This document shows positions 1 to 40,685 of a stretch of 40,686 nucleotides of DNA, piece after piece. The DNA is from Fervidobacterium thailandense (GTDB lineage Bacteria > Thermotogota > Thermotogae > Thermotogales > Fervidobacteriaceae). The notes under the pieces are model-generated. The model searched no databases and was not told the DNA's origin. It worked only from the letters and a program-made list of their open reading frames with translations. Both the position numbers and the translations under genes were made by a program. The stretch spans positions 1-40,686 of the forward strand of contig NZ_LWAF01000013.1 in NCBI RefSeq assembly GCF_001719065.1. Reading direction: 5' to 3'. How positions within the stretch are numbered: the first letter of the stretch is position 1; each line of letters begins with the position of its first letter.

Positions 1-1291
1 TGTCGGCTTGTGGGAGGAGGATTAGGATTTCCTCACCGCCCATCCGGATGGGAAAGTCACTCATCCTGGTGTTTTCTATTATTATCTTTCCGATTTTTTG
101 GAGTACCTCGTCACCTTTTTGGTGACCGTAGGTGTCGTTGATTTTTTTAAAGTTATCTGCATCGATTGCAATTGCCGAGAGTGGCATCCGATCTGCCTTG
201 CTTGAAACGTAAAGCCGTTCGATTTGTGAATTGAAAACGAACCTTGTCAGTAAACCGGTGAGTGGGTCTTTTTCTAAGAGTCGCCGGACTTCCTCGTTGA
301 GTTTTCGAAGACTCAAATTTTTCGATTCGAGTTCCTTCAGATAAACGTTAATTTGCTCCTTTTGGATGAGGTAGTGTTTGACAGCCTGTGCAAGCTGTCC
401 AATTTCATCGTCACGTACTGTGTACTGTTCCAAGGGATCTGTGGTGTTGTTTTCAATAGCGTACACGATGTTGGCAAACGGCTTTATGAGGTAGGATGAG
501 AGATAAGAAGTTACGAGAGTCAAAAAGACAATGACGAAAACCGTGAGGAGTAAAACAAGGATTATCATGCTGTTTACAAGGTGTCTGAAGGTTTTGAACT
601 CAATCATGGAGTGGATGTAGCCAATGATTTCTCCTTTGGAGTTTTTGATGGGTTTCTTGTATGTCAATTCACCAATTCTTTGCCTTGGTTCTTTTTCCCC
701 AATTGACGTGAATGTAATTCTTGTTCCGGATAAGTTTTCCAGGTTTGTTAAGTCTTGCACATCGTATATGTTGCCCATAACCAACCAGCCAGCAGGGTTA
801 GTCCTTTCAAGATCAGCTGATTTGCAAATCGGGTAGGAAACGATTTCTATTGGAAAAGTAATCCATTCTGGCCATTCAAAAAAGTAAGTAGATTTTTTTA
901 ATTCGCCTGCATTTAGTTTCTCCACAAGGAGTCCCTTGATTCGAGAATCGTTCGATTCAAAGAAAACAAGCTCGGTATCTCGGATGACAGCAACGAAATC
1001 TACTTTGAAAAGTTGGTGATAAGAAATGGACAAATTCGTTTTCGCGAACTCCTCGTTGGGTTGGAGGACGAAGTTGTAGAGCTCGTCCCAGAGAGAGTAG
1101 TCTTTGCACACCGTTTTCATGGGAAGCGAGTAACTTTCAAGTAGGTGGTCTACCGATTGTCCGTAAAATTCTTCCAGGAAGCTAAAGCTTTTTCGAACAG
1201 AAAAGGAAACGAACATGACTATTAAAGTTAAAGAGGAGAGAAAGGCTAACGTAGCCAAGATGTTGTATTTCTTTATCTTGTCACGTAACAT
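1..1291 (-). CDS. Membrane sensor diguanylate cyclase (CHASE4-like/HAMP/GGDEF), truncated by the window edge
   Basis: The minus strand is open from an ATG at 1291 to the window edge, so the C-terminus is missing. The visible 430 residues start with a membrane segment (about residues 11-32). A roughly 200-residue extracytoplasmic region follows, with the CHASE4-like signature YSLWDELY. A second membrane helix lies at about 240-262, then a HAMP-like linker and a GGDEF domain opening with DPLTGLLTR. The active-site signature reads GGEEI, and an RxxD motif (RMSD) sits exactly five residues before it, which in this family is the inhibitory c-di-GMP I-site. The expected activity is 2 GTP to c-di-GMP under control of an external signal. 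The ligand cannot be told from sequence. A GGGGG stretch about 12 bases upstream is a modest ribosome site. Confidence 0.93.
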   Translation of the reverse strand, partial: MLRDKIKKYNILATLAFLSSLTLIVMFVSFSVRKSFSFLEEFYGQSVDHLLESYSLPMKTVCKDYSLWDELYNFVLQPNEEFAKTNLSISYHQLFKVDFVAVIRDTELVFFESNDSRIKGLLVEKLNAGELKKSTYFFEWPEWITFPIEIVSYPICKSADLERTNPAGWLVMGNIYDVQDLTNLENLSGTRITFTSIGEKEPRQRIGELTYKKPIKNSKGEIIGYIHSMIEFKTFRHLVNSMIILVLLLTVFVIVFLTLVTSYLSSYLIKPFANIVYAIENNTTDPLEQYTVRDDEIGQLAQAVKHYLIQKEQINVYLKELESKNLSLRKLNEEVRRLLEKDPLTGLLTRFVFNSQIERLYVSSKADRMPLSAIAIDADNFKKINDTYGHQKGDEVLQKIGKIIIENTRMSDFPIRMGGEEILILLPQAD

Positions 1292-18072: not shown

Positions 18073-19017
18073 GTGAGAAAATCTTTTGTTTTGACAACCA
18101 TAGCTTTGGTGTCGACGCTTTTTGTACTTTTCAGTTGTACCCAACTCACTCAACTTTTCGAGCCAAGGAAAAGTGTTACCGTGGTACTGAACGCATTTTC
18201 AGATGACCAGCCCAAAGTTGCGAGTATTGACACCCCAGAACTTCTCGCACAACGAGACAAACCTTGGGTATCGGACATAGAAGCTTTGAAAGTCAAGGTT
18301 TCGAAATTCTCTTACAGGTATTCAACAGACCTTGGTGAGAACAAGTGGGCAACACCAACCACTGTGGATGTAGTTGTTGACCTTGTAAAACTGACAACAG
18401 AAGAATACGAATGGTTGAAATTCGAAGTACCCAACGGAGCTGTTATACTCGGAATTGCCTTGGAGATCAAGGAAGCCACGGTGACTATAAACGGAGTGGA
18501 TTATCCCGTCACGATTCCCGGTGATAAAAAAGTCATCAAGATTCCAAATATGAACTGGAAGATAGGAGAAGACGTGGTTCTCGAGCTGAGACTTGATCTT
18601 TCACGTAGCATAATAAAGAGAGCGAAAAGTAACAACGGAAGAATTGAATATGAATACATCCTCATTCCAAACTTCGGTTGGCGTTGGAGAAGCGATTTGA
18701 AAAATCTGTGGGCAATCCAAGGAACGATCACAATTAACAATCAAAAACCTCAAGAACCGCTGTACGTTGTCCTTTTCGAAGGCGAAACACCAACTTCCAC
18801 ACCTCTGGTAGCGCAGTTCTTGCCTGTGAGAAAGGAAGGCCAGTTCTACCTTGGCAAACACAAGAAGGGAACGTACACGATTATCATATACGACAACTTA
18901 GATTTCCAATACACCGATACCGGAGTGAGCATTTCTGGAAGAAAAGCTTATCAGAACACTTTCGAACACGGAAAAACGTCCGCGACAACAAACTTGACGA
19001 TCAACATTACAAAATAG
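18073..19017 (+). CDS. Lipoprotein with beta-rich domain (DUF4382-like)
   Basis: About 314 residues. A lipobox (LFVLFSC) marks a lipoprotein. The mature part has beta strands and a pattern (ALKVKVSKFSYRY, TTVDVVVDLVKL, GAVILGIALEIKEATVTING) like the DUF4382 family of secreted carboxypeptidase-regulatory-like proteins. The last third looks like a separate small beta domain (QPQEPLYVVLFEGE... DNLDFQY). No enzyme motif is seen. Several in-frame GTG/TTG codons begin the frame; GTG 18073 has GGGAGG at the best spacing. It follows the phospholipase-like gene by 76 bases and may share its transcript. Confidence 0.6.
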   Translation: MRKSFVLTTIALVSTLFVLFSCTQLTQLFEPRKSVTVVLNAFSDDQPKVASIDTPELLAQRDKPWVSDIEALKVKVSKFSYRYSTDLGENKWATPTTVDVVVDLVKLTTEEYEWLKFEVPNGAVILGIALEIKEATVTINGVDYPVTIPGDKKVIKIPNMNWKIGEDVVLELRLDLSRSIIKRAKSNNGRIEYEYILIPNFGWRWRSDLKNLWAIQGTITINNQKPQEPLYVVLFEGETPTSTPLVAQFLPVRKEGQFYLGKHKKGTYTIIIYDNLDFQYTDTGVSISGRKAYQNTFEHGKTSATTNLTINITK

Positions 19018-19043
19018 CAAGTGTATGAGAGAACCGAGAGTAA

Positions 19044-19076
19044 AAAAGCGGGGGCAATCCCCGCTTTTATTTTTTC
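19044..19076. terminator. Bidirectional terminator between the lipoprotein and SDH-protease genes
   Basis: AAAAGCGGGG (19044-19053) pairs with CCCCGCTTTT (19059-19068) across GCAAT, followed by ATTTTTTC. The A-run on the left gives a T-run on the minus strand. Confidence 0.9.
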
Positions 19077-19917
19077 ATTTCTTTGGTTGCTCCCCTCTTC
19101 TATAATCCATCGGAACGTATCCTATCGACGGCCTCCCACCCGCCGGGTTTTTGTATAACTCCATCAGTTCGTAAATCTCCTTTGGCATGTCGGTAGAGAC
19201 TCTCAGCCCAAGTTCTCTGGCTTTTTCAACTGTTATCGGATAATCGTGCGTCCAGTAGCCACTAACAAGCTTATCGGCCAGTTCCTCCGCTTTGTCGGGG
19301 TACTTTTCTTTTAGTAGATCAGTAACGTATTCCTTCATCTGTTTCATGGCCTTCTCCGCCACATCGGCGAGTATCAGCGTCTGGTCGTCTATCTCATCGA
19401 TGTTCTTTTTCTTCAAAACGGAGAGTATCGATGCGGCGGGGAATTGACCAATTTGTGGATCGACCGGTCCAAGGACCGCGTTCTCGTCCATGACGATTTC
19501 GTCGGCGGCCAGTGCGATTAACGTTCCACCAGACATGGCATAGTGGGGAACGAAAACGGTAACCTTTCCTTTGTGTTTTCTAAGAGCGTTCGCTATCTGT
19601 TCTGCTGCAAGTACCAGACCACCCGGTGTGTGGATTATGAAGTCAATGGGCATATCTGGTGGTGTCATCTTTATCGCCCTGAGAACTTCCTCTGAATCCT
19701 CAATGTCTATAAACTTTCTAATGCCAAAGCCAAGAAAACTTATGGACTCTTGTCTGTGTATCAACGTGATCACGCGACTCTTTCTTTTCATCTCGATGGT
19801 GCGCATCAGTGCCTCTCGAGAGGAATTCAAAGACAGGTTCTTGAAAAGTGGTGTGAGTGATGAAAAGATGAGTATCATCCAAAACAACTGAAAGATGATC
19901 GTAAAGAAATCGACCAT
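19075..19917 (-). CDS. Membrane-anchored ClpP-like serine protease (SDH/DUF114 family)
   Basis: 280 residues. One N-terminal membrane helix (about 5-25), then a crotonase/ClpP-type fold. DFIIHTPGGLVLAAEQIA provides the oxyanion Gly-Gly strand. HYAMSGGTLIALAADEIVMD contains the nucleophile Ser129 in the MSGGT context. VLGPVDPQIGQFPA closes the core. This is the family of serine dehydrogenase proteinases related to SppA/NfeD-type membrane proteases. The likely job is turnover of membrane or exported peptides. GAGGTAGAAAGC precedes ATG 19917. Confidence 0.88.
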   Translation of the reverse strand: MVDFFTIIFQLFWMILIFSSLTPLFKNLSLNSSREALMRTIEMKRKSRVITLIHRQESISFLGFGIRKFIDIEDSEEVLRAIKMTPPDMPIDFIIHTPGGLVLAAEQIANALRKHKGKVTVFVPHYAMSGGTLIALAADEIVMDENAVLGPVDPQIGQFPAASILSVLKKKNIDEIDDQTLILADVAEKAMKQMKEYVTDLLKEKYPDKAEELADKLVSGYWTHDYPITVEKARELGLRVSTDMPKEIYELMELYKNPAGGRPSIGYVPMDYRRGEQPKK

Positions 19918-19965
19918 GCTTTCTACCTCCTGTATAAAATGATAGTGTGTTACTTACCAATAAAA

Positions 19966-19974
19966 ATTATACCA
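19966..19974 (-). promoter_or_regulatory. Extended -10 promoter of the SDH-protease gene
   Basis: The minus strand reads TGGTATAAT (TATAAT at plus 19966-19971 with an upstream TGn), a typical extended -10. The -35 region is poor. Confidence 0.5.
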
Positions 19975-20063
19975 AAATTTACTTAAAGTTAGTCCCCCCT
20001 CTAAGTTTTGAGGTAGTTCTAAGGTTTTGGCTTCTTTTCTTAACGTGTTAAAGATATCTTTAA

Positions 20064-20306
20064 GGCGGAAAAAGCACAAAACACAAGGGAATATCGAAAA
20101 AAGGGAACAAAGTGCTGAGAAGGATATTCTACAACTTAGCGATAAGAGCGATAAGGTTGATAGAGAAGTACAAGAAGAAATACCGAGAGCTAATATCAAG
20201 TGGCAAAAAGCCAAAGCAAGCGATAATAGCCATAGCGAGGAAATTAGCTGAGTTAGTATGGATATTATGGACAAGAAAAGAGTCGTTTGACATGACGAAA
20301 GCATAA
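20064..20306 (+). pseudogene. Remnant of an IS110-family transposase (C-terminal fragment)
   Basis: One frame, open from just after a TAA at 20061, reads HKGISKKGNKVLRRIFYNLA and then GKKPKQAIIAIARKLAELVW before a stop at 20306. This is the recognisable end of the Transposase_20 (IS116/IS110/IS902) domain. The N-terminal RuvC-like DEDD part and the rest of the element are absent, so it is a dead fragment. I see no ends or duplicated target. Bases 20307-20480 hold nothing I recognise. Confidence 0.7.
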
Positions 20307-20489
20307 TTTCAAAGACCGAGAGAGCAAGCAGGAATAACAACTAAAGCGAAGATAAGGACGAATGCACGTAAGCGACGAGAAGTTGCAAAAATATGGTATT
20401 GGCAAAAACTTAAAAACTGAAGGATTCATCTAAGCAACATGCAAATTTTCGAATTCACCTATTGACTTTCTAGAGTACCCCTAAAGGAG

Positions 20490-20867
20490 GAGAGCCTGCG
20501 GCAAACAAGTCTCCTGTCACAAAACTTTCGGAACTTAACCTACCAGCTACAACTAAAATTTTTATGATCAACTCAAACCTTGGGTCTATTACAACTTCAG
20601 GGTTGTACGTGTTGATCACAGCATTGCGAATTACTCAGTTACATTAATCCGCAGCTGCTACGGAGTTCTACGATTATCGCTATTCCAGATATAGGATTTT
20701 CGATACGAGTTACCAAGACTGGCTCAAACGGCGGTAGTTTGGTTACATTCTTTTTTGAAAATCTGTCAGTCGCTTACTTCGAATACGATACGAGGACAGG
20801 ATTGCTACTTTATCAAGATTACACGGACGTAAGTTTTCGAACAGCGATCATGTTGACAGGAAGATGA
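20490..20867 (+). pseudogene. Degraded coding sequence, origin unknown
   Basis: Two overlapping frames look protein-like but neither has a start and ribosome site in place. One ends near 20646 (NLGSITTSGLYVLIT). The other runs to a TGA at 20867 (IGFSIRVTKTGSNGG, ENLSVAYFEYDTRTGLLL). The second reads like the last beta-rich domain of a secreted protein. A frameshift near 20616-20646 would join them. It lies just after the transposase scrap and is probably an eroded gene. Confidence 0.45.
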
Positions 20868-20960
20868 GGTTGAAAAAATAGTTGTTCAATAACTTTTCGT
20901 GCGCACATCCCTTTTAAGTTTATTGAGCTTCATGGTATAATTTTTTGAAGAAATCAAGTG

Positions 20961-21371
20961 ATGAGTGTGCAAAGGGGTGGAACACTTCTGAGCTTTAATA
21001 ATTTCGTTCGCAGAACGCTGTATTTTCTTATAGGTTTTGTTTCTCTTGTTTTTGGAATTATTGGAATATTCGTTCCGATCTTGCCAACGACACCTTTTCT
21101 TTTACTGTCGGCATGGTGTTTTCTCCGTTCCTCAAAGAAATTTTACAACTGGCTTCTGAATCACAAAGTTTTGGGATTTTACGTAAAAAACTACCTGGTT
21201 CACCGAGGAACAACTCGAAAAGCTAAGATCTATACGTTGGTTTTTCTCTGGCTCGTCATCTTGATTTCCACAGTGTTTTTCGTTCAAACTCTTTGGCTCA
21301 GAACTTTGCTGTTAGTAATCGCATGTCTTGTTTCGATACATGTAGTAACACTGCGAGATATTGAGAAATGA
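20961..21371 (+). CDS. DUF454 (YbaN-family) inner-membrane protein
   Basis: About 136 residues. The family core is clear: a helix pair with GIIGIFVPILPTTPFLLLSAWCFLRSS, then FYNWLLNHKVLG, and a C-terminal pair of membrane helices. The function of this family is unknown. The start is uncertain. ATG 20961 lacks a ribosome site, whereas AGGGGTGG at 20973-20980 points to the in-frame CTG at 20988, which would be a rare initiator. A TATAAT at about 20936-20941 is the likely -10. Confidence 0.8.
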   Translation: MSVQRGGTLLSFNNFVRRTLYFLIGFVSLVFGIIGIFVPILPTTPFLLLSAWCFLRSSKKFYNWLLNHKVLGFYVKNYLVHRGTTRKAKIYTLVFLWLVILISTVFFVQTLWLRTLLLVIACLVSIHVVTLRDIEK

Positions 21372-21533
21372 GCAAACATACGTTCGAAACAGTCATACAG
21401 CACGTATAAATAACTTTTCTGAATATTGACTGCTTTTACTGTGGGAGTACAATTGGCATGTACGTTTGAGAATCCGCATAAATACTGTCTCTTGTATTTT
21501 CTTTGTTTCCAAAGCGAATTTGGAAAAAGGTGC

Positions 21534-21562
21534 TTGACAAATTTTCATCGATGTGGTATAAT
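21534..21562 (+). promoter_or_regulatory. Orphan consensus promoter resembling the tRNA-Asn promoter
   Basis: TTGACA (21534-21539) and TATAAT (21557-21562), 17-base spacer ending CGATGTGG, as in the tRNA-Asn promoter at 1455-1482. Transcription would begin near 21569 and meet a terminator at 21584, leaving an RNA of about 40 bases with no tRNA or gene. Confidence 0.8.
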
Positions 21563-21583
21563 ATATGGTGACGTTGCTTGAAA

Positions 21584-21613
21584 CCCCAGGAAAACTGGGG
21601 CTTTTTTATTTTT
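21584..21613 (+). terminator. Terminator immediately after the orphan promoter
   Basis: CCCCAG (21584-21589), loop GAAAA, CTGGGG (21595-21600), then CTTTTTTATTTTT. A compact, strong intrinsic terminator. Confidence 0.85.
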
Positions 21614-21635
21614 AATGGATAATTAAGGAAATTAA

Positions 21636-21665
21636 AAAAGCCCGGGATGGACATCCCGGGCTTTT
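21636..21665 (-). terminator. Terminator of the NADH-oxidase-like gene
   Basis: A 13-bp perfect stem, 21636-21648 with 21653-21665, loop GGAC. On the minus strand it is followed by TTTTTTAATTT, just beyond the stop at 21682. Confidence 0.88.
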
Positions 21666-21681
21666 GTTTGCTTTATTTCTT

Positions 21682-22845
21682 TTACCTTGAAAAAATAACA
21701 TTTTCAGCTGCTTTGATCACGGGATAGACCGTTGGTGCTGCGGTTAAAAGTGGATGAGTTCCTATTTGCATGGTGTAAAGTTCAGAGACGGTCATCCGCT
21801 TTTGTATCGCGAGTCCAATGAAGTTGATTATTTCACCGGCGGAATCTCCTCCAACGACCTCTCCACCAAGTATCGTACCACATTCTTTGGCAACGATGAG
21901 TTTCACTATTTGCTTTTTCGCGTTCGGTAGTGTGCCTGGGTGCTTATCAATTGCTTCAGCATAGCCAACCATTACATCAAAACCGTTCTTTTTTGCTTCT
22001 TCTTCAATTAAACCAGCGGATCCGATTGCCAACGTCCCAACCTTGGTCGAGAAGATCGCAATAGTTCCAAGGAAAGTCCTAACCGTTGAGAGCTCGTAGA
22101 GATTAGCTCCAGCTATTCTTGCTTCTGTAGTTGCTGTGGAAGCGAGCATAACGGGGACGCTTCTTCTCGTAACAAAGTCAATTTTTTGTGCGCAGTCTCC
22201 AACGGCAAATACATCTGGATCCGTTACTGTGCGCATGTAAGAATCGACCCGAATCATACGATAGCGATTTACCTCGAATCCAGCTTCGATGGCAATTTCG
22301 GTATTTGGTACATAACCTGTTGCCAATATGACCGCATCTGCTCTTACTTCTTCACCGTTCTCAAATATTACCGTCTCCACCTTACCGTTTCCCCTTATCT
22401 CAAGAATCTTGGCGTTGACCATTATCTTCACACCCAGTTTTTCAAGTTCCTCGGCCGGGAATTTTGCAACATCTGCATCGAAAGCTTTGGGAAGAATGTG
22501 CGGCATAATTTCCACAAGGATGACTTCCTTACCTTCAAGGGCAAGCTGCTCCGAAACTTCAACTCCGATGAAGCCGGCTCCGACAACAATGACTCTGTTC
22601 AAGCTGGAAAGTTTTTCTTTCATCTTTGCAAGATAATTAGCATCTTTCGGAACTGTGAACACATTCTCAAGTTCTACACCCTTGATCGGAGGGATATACG
22701 GTTTTGAACCGAGCGCAAGCACCAGCTTCTCGTAAGAAACTTCTTTCCCTGCGCGCGTATAAAGAATTTTGTTTGTTCTATCGATTTTCACAACCTCGTC
22801 GATGAGAAGTTCAATACCCATCTGTTGATAGACTTGACCAGGCAT
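21682..22845 (-). pseudogene. NADH oxidase / CoA-disulfide-reductase-like flavoprotein, 3' part cut off by an IS605 insertion
   Basis: 387 residues continuing the fragment at 24616-24799. It retains the end of the FAD region (LVLALGSKPYIPPIKG), the NAD(P)H-binding Rossmann motif (VIVVGAGFIGVEVSEQLALEG), the second FAD contact (VFAVGDCAQ) and the dimerisation domain. The flavin GGSAAG motif and the redox Cys lie on the other side of the insertion. The IS ends directly before an in-frame ATG at 22845 (MPGQVYQQ), and its last bases supply AGGAGG four bases upstream, so a truncated protein could be made. An open frame extends back to 23088, but that part is antisense to tnpB and is not genuine. 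Confidence 0.85.
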
Positions 22846-22980
22846 TTGACCTCCTCCCCGCATTAAAATGCGGGGATTCTTCGTGCGGTGTGTTAGCTTA
22901 CTAACCTTAACCGCACTGGGCTGGCCAAGGCCCCTACTCCTACTCCTGCTACCGAGCTCGGAGATACCTTCTTGAGTATG
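22846..22980 (-). ncRNA. Probable omega (reRNA) scaffold of TnpB at the right end
   Basis: In IS605-type elements the TnpB guide RNA is read through the 3' end of tnpB and the right end, and its guide is the host sequence just past the element. Here the scaffold would end at 22846 after the hairpin 22856-22875. The natural guide would be the minus strand from 22845 downward, starting ATGCCTGGTCAAGTCT. The 5' limit is a guess. Confidence 0.5.
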
Positions 22981-24113
22981 TTCAAAGCACCGTTTACGTC
23001 GGCGTTTAGAACAGTACCACAGCTCGAGCAAACGTACAGACCTCGGTATTTTCTGTTCGCTTTGTCTACCGTTCCACAGCGCGAACACGTTTGCGAAGTG
23101 TACGCTTCATCGATTTGGACAACTTGAATGCCGTAGGCTTTAGCTTTGTACTTCAGCTTTTGCAAGAATTTACCATACGGCATCTGATGAAGCTTTTGGT
23201 TGCTTTGGCTTCCAATATCGATGTTAGTTATTCCATGGTTAAGTTTGCCAACAACTATTACTCCCACACCATTTTCGACGCAGTAGTCGACGATACTCTT
23301 TGATGCTTTGTGCACGAAGTCGTTAACGTAGTTTTGTCTGTATCGATAGAGCCTATGCAATCGCTTCGAGGTCTTGAGTTTTTGTCTATCGAGTACGGAC
23401 TTTAGTTTGGCTGTTTTCTTGTTCACCAGCCTGAGTTTGGAAAGTAGTACCCTGCCATCGATGATGAAGCTCTTGGCTCCATCAGTGCACGTTGCAAAGT
23501 TACTAACACCCAGGTCGATGGCTAAAATCTTGCTTCCATTTAGCTGTGGCTGGTCTTTGAAATCTTGGATAGGTTCTCTGTAGATTATCCTGAGTGAGTA
23601 GGAAATGTGCCCAAAGGCTTGATACGGAACAAGTTCAACTTGCTGAATCTTCACGGAATCGAGCGATAGAGTTCTTGGCAACTCTATCCATACGTACTCG
23701 GACTCGATTCCGTGGGCTGATTTGAGGTATTCCTTGGTTTGCTTTGAGAGAGACAACCTGAGCTTGCAACCAACGACTTTGAAACCGTTCTCTTTCCAAG
23801 TTACTGGGAAATGTCCGTCCTTGGGTTGGTAGCGTGGACGTTTGGTATGCTTATCGAACGTATTCTTCCAGGCAACTTGAAGCTTCTGGAGGACAGCTTG
23901 AGCACTCTGAGAATGCAAGTTACGAGCAAAGAAGTTATCTTTGAGCTTATGCTCAAGTTCATAGATAGACACACCGTTCTTCTCTATTTCGTAGTTAGCA
24001 ACATTCCACAGTTTGGATGCTGAATATGTTAGGTGTCCGAAAATTATAGCAAGTTTCTTATCCGTCTTTCTTGACAGGTCTAAGACAAAGCACTTAGTTA
24101 CAAATTCTGGCAT
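22893..24113 (-). CDS. tnpB: TnpB, RNA-guided nuclease of the IS605 element (variant active site)
   Basis: 406 residues, intact. An N-terminal OrfB-type helical/WED region is followed by a RuvC fold: first Asp in AIDLGVSNFAT (D200), zinc ribbon CSRCG...CSSCG (C343, C346, C362, C365) and last Asp in NADVNGALN (D372). The position that normally holds the RuvC-II Glu reads VVGKLN (G289). A Glu at 336 in QIDEAYTSQ, just before the zinc ribbon, is the likely replacement. TnpB cuts DNA next to a motif equal to the element's left target, predicted TTAC here. It overlaps tnpA by 16 bases. Confidence 0.92.
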   Translation of the reverse strand: MPEFVTKCFVLDLSRKTDKKLAIIFGHLTYSASKLWNVANYEIEKNGVSIYELEHKLKDNFFARNLHSQSAQAVLQKLQVAWKNTFDKHTKRPRYQPKDGHFPVTWKENGFKVVGCKLRLSLSKQTKEYLKSAHGIESEYVWIELPRTLSLDSVKIQQVELVPYQAFGHISYSLRIIYREPIQDFKDQPQLNGSKILAIDLGVSNFATCTDGAKSFIIDGRVLLSKLRLVNKKTAKLKSVLDRQKLKTSKRLHRLYRYRQNYVNDFVHKASKSIVDYCVENGVGVIVVGKLNHGITNIDIGSQSNQKLHQMPYGKFLQKLKYKAKAYGIQVVQIDEAYTSQTCSRCGTVDKANRKYRGLYVCSSCGTVLNADVNGALNILKKVSPSSVAGVGVGALASPVRLRLVS

Positions 24114-24490
24114 TCATCGATGTACCTCCTGATAGTTTCGGCAGAAACGTTGCCGTGTGTTGCGATAAAATAAGAGTCTGTCCACAAATGTTTCGAATTG
24201 CGCAGTGTTGGGAATTTAGCCCTGAGCTTTCTTGCAGTAGTTCCTTTGACGATTTTTATAATCTCAGCAGGGCTATACTTTGGAGGTGCTGAGAGGAACA
24301 AGTGTACATGGTCGGGCATAACCTCTAATGCTAAGATTTCAAAACCGAATTGTTGGGCAATTTCGTTGATTATGCTACAGAGTTCAGTTTTAACGTTGCC
24401 GTTCAAAAGCTGCTTCCAATATTTTGGAATCCAGACGAAATGATAGGCGATTTGGTATTTTGCGTGTCGTGAGGATTTAATTGCTACCAT
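24098..24490 (-). CDS. tnpA: TnpA, Y1-type HUH transposase of the IS605 element
   Basis: About 130 residues, the normal length. The HUH motif is PDHVHLFL and the single catalytic Tyr is in TIRRYIDEC, so the enzyme looks active. It performs single-strand excision and insertion at the subterminal hairpins. ATG 24490 follows GGGGTG by 8 bases; an in-frame TTG at 24496 is less likely. Confidence 0.95.
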   Translation of the reverse strand: MVAIKSSRHAKYQIAYHFVWIPKYWKQLLNGNVKTELCSIINEIAQQFGFEILALEVMPDHVHLFLSAPPKYSPAEIIKIVKGTTARKLRAKFPTLRNSKHLWTDSYFIATHGNVSAETIRRYIDECQNL

Positions 24491-24537
24491 ATACAATTCA
24501 CCCCACTATCCATTAATTAACACTTGCGCTCGACTTT

Positions 24538-24565
24538 ATTATACCATATGCAACAAAAATATCAA
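24538..24565 (-). promoter_or_regulatory. Promoter of tnpA-tnpB in the left end
   Basis: On the minus strand TTGATA (plus 24560-24565) and TATAAT (plus 24538-24543) are 16 bases apart, directly inside the left-end hairpin. Confidence 0.7.
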
Positions 24566-24615
24566 GGCTCTGTATCCCCGCACTGAAGTGCGGGGCTTTA
24601 GAGCCTCCAAATTTT

Positions 24616-39859: not shown

Positions 39860-40685
39860 GTTTTAATCGCTTATTGGGATGCTACAAACTAAGTGTTCAG
39901 GTGATATATAGAACCCCGATGGAAGCCTTTCAATCCCTCATGGGGACGCTACGAACCAAACTTGAAGACGATAAGTTCACAGTCTCAACGTAGTTTCAAT
40001 CCCTCATAGGGGCGCTACAAACGATGTTTGTATACGACGAAGAAACAAAAGAGTTGACGTTTCAATCCCTCATAGGGACGCTACAAACCTTAATCAACCT
40101 CAATCTCATAATACGCATCGCTCAGGTTTCAATCCCTCATAGGGACGCTACAAACGCGTAAACGACGGAATAGATTTCTACGAAAGATACCGTTTCAATC
40201 CCTCATAGGGACGCTACAAACTTACGGCTTGCAAAAGAACGGTCGGACGTTCACATTTTAAGTTTCAATCCCTCATAGGGACGCTACAAACAAAGACTAA
40301 GCAACTGTCAGAAATCATGTAGTCCCGGTTTCAATCCCTCATAGGGACGCTACAAACCAGTTTATGTGTACAGCGTTCCGATACATCGAAGGCGTTTCAA
40401 TCCCTCATAGGGACGCTACAAACGATAGTATGCCAGCAAAACTGCTATCGTATTACGGGTTTCAATCCCTCATAGGGGCGCTACAAACTTGTGGCCATGT
40501 CTTTCGAAGCGATTGATCTGAGAGGTTTCAATCCCTCATAGGGACGCTACAAACGCCTCCTCGCTGGGAGGAGGTGACATATCCAGAGATGTTTCAATCC
40601 CTCATAGGGACGCTACAAACTTTTGAGCCTCGGCTAAGCTTAGCTCCTTTACCGAGTTTCAATCCCTCATAGGGACGCTACAAAC
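39860..40685 (-). CRISPR. CRISPR array, distal (trailer) end, continuing past the window
   Basis: Thirteen 30-base repeats and 12 unique spacers are visible. The plus-strand repeat begins GTTTCAATCC and ends GACGCTACAAAC. Repeats start at 39860 (degenerate), 39927 (degenerate), 39993, 40059, 40126, 40192, 40262, 40328, 40394, 40459, 40525, 40591 and 40656. Spacers are 35-40 bases, mostly 36. Transcription is inferred to be on the minus strand: read that way each repeat ends in ATTGAAAC, the usual 5' handle of type I-B/III crRNAs, and the decayed repeats lie at the far left as expected for the trailer. Repeats 39993 and 40459 share an A-to-G change. Leader and cas genes must lie outside to the right. 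Confidence 0.97.

Follow-up and report, generated by a model that had tools for sequence, protein, structure and literature searches.

Hfq-dependent small RNAs carry a terminator hairpin followed by a U-tail at their 3′ end, and the product RNAs of 6S RNA, like transcription-start-associated RNAs, are very short molecules made by the housekeeping polymerase. Other systems close to the locus described here are the tRNA and rRNA units with tandem P1-P2 promoters and the leader attenuators or premature terminators (PMC2965389), which combine a promoter, a short leader and a terminator. In T. maritima, an ncRNA study reported 13 putative ncRNAs (12 in its abstract); its screen took only regions longer than 68 nt (PMC3636130), and it would therefore miss an RNA as short as the one considered below. 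No description of units consisting of a promoter and a hairpin was found in the open-licence literature searched.

The window, which is the whole stretch of 40,686 nt of Fervidobacterium thailandense DNA analysed here (contig NZ_LWAF01000013.1), contains such a unit at 21534-21613. It resembles the tRNA and rRNA units in its A-tract, TTGACA box, extended -10 element and tandem promoters, but neither a tRNA nor an rRNA separates its promoter from its terminator. By analogy with Hfq-dependent small RNAs, a GC hairpin with a U-tail would make up the 3′ half of its predicted RNA, whereas scarcely any seed RNA would lie 5′ of the hairpin (~15 nt in the window, and 0-1 nt in the family f2 discussed below). 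The predicted product is also comparable to 6S RNA product RNAs and start-associated RNAs in being a very short RNA of the housekeeping polymerase, but it would be encoded in DNA with its own promoter and intrinsic terminator. With leader attenuators it shares the order of promoter, short leader and terminator, and some of its relatives do precede genes; the window unit differs from these attenuators in having neither a downstream co-directional gene nor an alternative structure 5′ of the hairpin.

Architecture of the unit

The features of the locus are as follows.

21426-21453, plus strand: P1, upstream tandem promoter, TTGACT-16-TACAAT (10 of 12 positions), from the promoter scan
21523-21533, plus strand: A-tract or UP-like element GAAAAAGGTGC, immediately 5′ of the P2 -35 box; a similar A-tract occurs in most units of other families
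21534-21562, plus strand: P2, main promoter, TTGACA-17-TATAAT with extended -10 (GATGTGGTATAAT), from promoter scans and the stable-RNA promoter model
21569-21607, plus strand: predicted tiny hairpin RNA of ~38-40 nt, starting 7 nt past the -10 box and ending at the T-run
21584-21607, plus strand: intrinsic terminator, stem CCCCAG/CTGGGG, loop GAAAA and T-run, from sequence and folding
21636-21665, no strand assigned: bidirectional terminator of the convergent reductase gene, from the terminator scan; conserved in the relative G001
21682-23088, minus strand: convergent gene, the C-terminal part of a pyridine nucleotide-disulphide oxidoreductase, split by IS200/IS605

A first-pass annotation had described a consensus promoter that runs straight into a terminator, and the promoter scans together with the hairpin and T-run bear this out. 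P2 consists of TTGACA at 21534-21539, a 17-nt spacer ending in GATGTGG, and TATAAT at 21557-21562. It is the sole 12-of-12 match in a scan of 19000-24500 and the sole exact match in a 17-spacer scan of the window, where 0.24 matches are expected at one mismatch or fewer. Genome-wide, 24 perfect TTGACA-16..18-TATAAT sites were found compared to none with a reversed control pattern, so that this difference, along with the sole perfect match in 5.5 kb, argues against a chance match at P2. Inspection of the 24 sites showed that only P2 enters a hairpin terminator directly, within ~45 nt, and that five lead into tRNAs (Leu, Thr, Val, Asn, and Pro). At another of the perfect promoters of this genome (G000:C9:3762), a strong 10-bp terminator lies ~70-93 nt downstream, and this site could possibly give a ~90-nt small RNA or leader. 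The likeness to the tRNA-Asn promoter pointed out in the annotation holds at 85% identity over ~39 nt, including CGATGTGGTATAAT, although the spacer is 16 nt in tRNA-Asn and 17 nt in P2.

The A-tract, P1 and the bidirectional terminator add to what the annotation had noticed. The A-tract would presumably act as an UP element. P1 is the best promoter in the ~110 nt upstream, and its score is reached by 1% of dinucleotide shuffles. The tRNA-Asn gene of the window likewise has tandem promoters, TTGACA-17-TAAAAT and TTGACA-16-TATAAT, at 1371-1399 and 1455-1482.

Downstream of P2, the terminator reads CCCCAG-GAAAA-CTGGGG at 21584-21600, followed by C, T6 (21602-21607), A and T5. Its 6-bp GC stem lies ~15 nt past the expected start and is predicted to form at 37, 65 and 80 °C. 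The start at ~21569 was set from the 7-nt spacing after the -10 box that was measured in T. maritima (PMC3636130), and the predicted transcript from there to ~21607 agrees with the length of about 40 nt given earlier. Having its own promoter and intrinsic terminator, the unit is organised as an intergenic small RNA gene would be.

Searches for a known product gave the following. ARAGORN found one tRNA in the window, tRNA-Asn at 1503-1578; neither ARAGORN nor Rfam found a tRNA between the promoter and terminator of the unit, and the Rfam search found no tRNA remnant there even at E up to 1. The window unit has no gathering-level match to an Rfam family, and 10 unit loci searched at E up to 1 gave sub-threshold matches only. 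A leaderless 15-codon peptide was also considered and rejected: the window unit holds a GTG frame of 15 codons, but the frame in G001 encodes a different peptide, and the frame is thus not conserved between the two (both read by eye). Leaderless mRNAs were undetected in T. maritima.

Elsewhere in the window, an IS200/IS605-type insertion at 22846-24614 interrupts the oxidoreductase gene, with TnpB at 22893-24113 and a Y1 transposase at 24098-24496, and a CRISPR array of the CRISPR-DR2 repeat type at 40059-40685 reaches the window end.

Recurrence in relatives and promoter class

The unit is conserved across species, being syntenic in G001, and its architecture recurs in other families. Among the relatives, G001 alone belongs to the same genus, so that own-genus evidence comes from two genomes; its contig has a coverage of about 2 and the reductase frame is broken in places, which leaves single-base details uncertain. 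G001 aligns at 79% identity from 21422, which corresponds to P1, across the unit and on into the reductase gene. It shares P2 and the terminator of that gene with the window, and a P1 counterpart, TTGACA-16-TAGAAT, is present at the same offset of -108. The hairpin and T-run are retained in G001 with changed arms, GGTCCC/GGGACC compared to CCCCAG/CTGGGG in the window. When the arms are aligned by eye from their outer ends, five of the six pairs are doubly changed; MAFFT offsets the arms with gaps and yields no such count, which is therefore not relied on. No tRNA is found at the syntenic G001 site. G001 is uninterrupted at the point of the IS200/IS605 insertion, where window positions 22845 and 24615, the edges of two successive alignment blocks, both map to position 1740 of the G001 locus. 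On the other side, window 19931-21422 with a DUF454 gene is absent from G001, which has ~9.3 kb of other DNA there, and the unit is thus bordered by a variable region.

The order was surveyed in 45 genomes, for which the family and genus labels (f1-f3 and g1-g14) were assigned by a tool. A super-consensus pattern, TTGACA-N(12-14)-GTGGTATAAT, gave 35 sites in 23 genomes, all of which were inspected: 13 lead into a tRNA (12 by ARAGORN, and one, partly masked, by eye), 14 into nothing but a hairpin and T-rich tail, and three into mRNA-like sequence, with five unclear. The 14 hairpin-only sites represent about seven distinct loci and are not 14 independent events. Perfect TTGACA-16..18-TATAAT sites sum to 564 over the order; in our own reading of the list, the T6 pattern gave, among the 529 of these without GTGG, eight tiny-unit sites and eight copies before transposase-like genes in G016 and G017. 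A shifted control, with T6 at 84-114 nt, proved a poor null since many of its matches are terminators behind tRNAs, and it was replaced by the census and by the tRNA-Asn terminator control given below.

By strict patterns, at least 22 of the 45 genomes carry a unit (G000, G001, G005, G008, G009, G014, 10 of the 11 f2 genomes, G021, G027, G029, G031, G033, and G037). With the same patterns, a unit was counted in one of nine genomes of genus g2 (G009) and in none of g3, g4, g8, g9 and g12-g14. Sites in G003 (L087) and G035 (L082), a weaker candidate in G023, and a G005/G011 site with its promoter inside an ORF were examined but left uncounted. So were the copies of a multi-copy element in G016 (G016:C1:1127857 and four more) and G017 (three copies, L083), in which an identical promoter and hairpin terminator stand directly before a 525-aa transposase-like ORF, as an attenuator-like leader on a mobile element. 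In the class as a whole (103 genomes), the super-consensus pattern gave 15 more sites outside the order, which we read as five tiny units, four tRNAs and six others; units outside the order occur in families f9 and f11, and one of the five has a tRNA-Pro ~45 nt further on.

The annotation had also placed the promoter with those of tRNAs, and a sequence-only promoter model, with 15 promoters of units and 13 of tRNAs as its training set, supports this assignment. The best match in the window's genome is P2 (E 1.5e-11, the site being in the training set), followed by tRNA-Asn (1.1e-8). A tiny unit is the top match in 10 of 11 f2 genomes and six of seven g7 genomes, ranks that are partly by construction because most of these units are in the training set; in G009, G032 and G021, however, a unit takes first place without having been used for training. 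In G001, among the matches listed, the tRNA-Asn promoter comes first and the unit second. The model finds tRNA-Asn, tRNA-Leu and rRNA promoters; its 40 further matches outside training and not previously collected comprise 26 tRNAs, three rRNA operons (two by Rfam, the third sequence-identical), two new tiny units and nine others. The identities of these 40 matches indicate a stable-RNA promoter class with the tiny units among its regular clients. An upstream tandem promoter is present in 12 of 18 units, where 2% or fewer of dinucleotide shuffles match it, and is not significant in the other six.

Conservation of the hairpin sequence

In family f2, the sequence of the hairpin itself is conserved. 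On average over the 45 pairs of 10 genomes, identity is 0.99 at the 14 arm positions, whereas the promoter spacer reaches 0.47 and the flank 0.32. G036 has a further unit, whose arm reads AGCAGGA, and this average does not include it. As a control, the f2 tRNA-Asn terminators, found in seven of 10 loci, have a best-offset 7-nt arm identity of 0.64/0.63, with one of 21 pairs identical. The f2 hairpin pattern is nearly private to the unit and rare elsewhere in those genomes (G030 has three sites), and a generic terminator was therefore rejected. Between non-orthologous f2 loci, homology extends over 49-88 nt and does not reach beyond the unit itself, except for one 24-nt match between G030 and G024. 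The f2 hairpin begins 6-7 nt past the -10 box, at the expected start site, so that the predicted RNA would consist of nothing but the hairpin and its U-tail.

Outside f2, the hairpin is kept while its arms change, as between the window and G001, between the metE-linked unit of G031 and those of G033, G027 and G037, and within the f9 set. In the latter (L305, L308, and L312), a comparison of G089 with G090 by eye shows at least two hairpin pairs in which both bases differ. Constraint on the RNA sequence beyond hairpin formation is thus seen in f2 and is absent between the window and G001 and between G031 and G033, so that a sequence-specific action would be supported in one family only.

Candidate roles of the unit

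The reading that we favour, with somewhat better than even confidence, is that 21534-21613 is a dedicated ultrashort transcription unit for a stable RNA, whose hairpin RNA probably acts in trans. Tandem housekeeping promoters of the tRNA/rRNA class, with P1, a near-ideal P2, the A-tract and the extended -10 element, would load polymerase at a high rate, and the polymerase would halt at the hairpin terminator within ~30-45 nt. The product would be the RNA of ~38-40 nt in the window and, in f2, a hairpin RNA of ~28-31 nt, bare except for its U-tail, giving an overall range of ~28-45 nt. Its 5′-proximal GC hairpin would make the RNA long-lived and hence abundant. From these features we infer an RNA that is transcribed, stable and plentiful and that most likely works in trans, a protein or a second RNA being examples of what it might bind; engagement of the terminator module by Hfq or other RNA-binding protein would be a plausible, if purely conjectural, route. 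A trans-acting RNA is favoured because a single unit cannot titrate polymerase, the neighbouring genes vary between genera, and f2 keeps the hairpin across loci. Against it stand the patchy presence of the unit, the hairpins that are not kept between the window and G001 or between G031 and the other metE-linked units, and the position of several units in the leader of a co-directional gene, for which attenuation would account.

The main rival, although we consider it unlikely, is a promoter-terminator acting in cis, in which continuous initiation and prompt termination would form a roadblock or boundary at a gene end against read-through from the upstream or convergent gene. The unit precedes the 3′ end of an opposite-strand gene in the window, at most metE-linked g7 units, and in G030, G020, G036 and G056, and remains of such a gene lie in G001. 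Moreover, one hairpin can replace another in units that are syntenic (G001; G031 downstream of metE, at 80% identity; f9), as if only termination mattered. On the other hand, neighbours differ between genera and the next gene is co-directional in g10, G022, G024 and for the second G036 unit; a bidirectional terminator alone would suffice and one is already present at 21636-21665; and the 99% arm identity across different f2 loci would be left unexplained. A role as a decoy or as a guard against read-through, as proposed in the annotation, is possible for the unit.

It is considerably harder to believe that the terminator is a leader attenuator which tunes the following gene, with the tiny RNA as a by-product. 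This would suit those f2 units that stand before a HAD-family gene, whose ribosome-binding site lies directly past the terminator (g10, five genomes), before an NhaC-type antiporter gene (G022 and the second G036 copy) or before a 324-aa ORF (G024), as well as the transposase-like gene in G016 and G017; the HAD and NhaC identities are our own reading of the sequences. Other f2 units, in G020, G036 and G030, face opposite-strand genes. The next gene after the window unit (21682-23088) is on the minus strand with no co-directional gene downstream, and the f2 hairpin begins at the expected start, which leaves no room for an antiterminator.

The first-pass annotation had offered two explanations, a deleted tRNA gene or the production of a tiny RNA. 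The second is the one adopted above, whereas the first, a relic in which promoter and terminator remain after the deletion, is rejected here and retains very little probability. The tRNA-class promoter resembling that of tRNA-Asn, and an upstream side that differs from G001, would be expected of such a scar. However, the syntenic G001 site has promoter and terminator without a tRNA, which is half of what the annotation itself had named as contrary evidence, and neither ARAGORN nor Rfam found a trace of one; the perfect promoter is kept in both genomes, and the same architecture is present at other loci in other families. By the stable-RNA model (trained in part on this site), moreover, the unit has the best promoter of its genome, one that a relic would not be expected to retain. 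A tiny RNA gene that had escaped notice thus seems a better description of the locus than the scar of a lost tRNA. An ordinary terminator lying by chance behind a promoter-like sequence is likewise very improbable: terminators are plentiful in AT-rich intergenic DNA and a low background exists among the 529 other perfect promoters (the eight sites and eight transposase-linked copies), but 14 of 35 sites in the super-consensus class, the conservation of both halves in G001 and the unit-only homology in f2 speak against it.

Extended beyond the window, the trans-acting RNA leads to a tentative proposal, to which we give a little less than an even chance, that Thermotogota possess a class of 'bare terminator' RNA genes. 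In this class, the most consensus-like promoter of many genomes would drive a 28-45-nt hairpin RNA at tRNA-like rates from a mobile unit of ~80 bp, and the RNA would act in trans, its hairpin sequence being constant in some families and exchanged for another in others. If true, the paucity of ncRNAs reported for T. maritima would have to be corrected, and a minimal kind of RNA gene, a terminator with a promoter, would be added to those known. Many heat-loving bacteria would then spend one of their strongest promoters on an RNA that is too short for standard RNA-seq pipelines.
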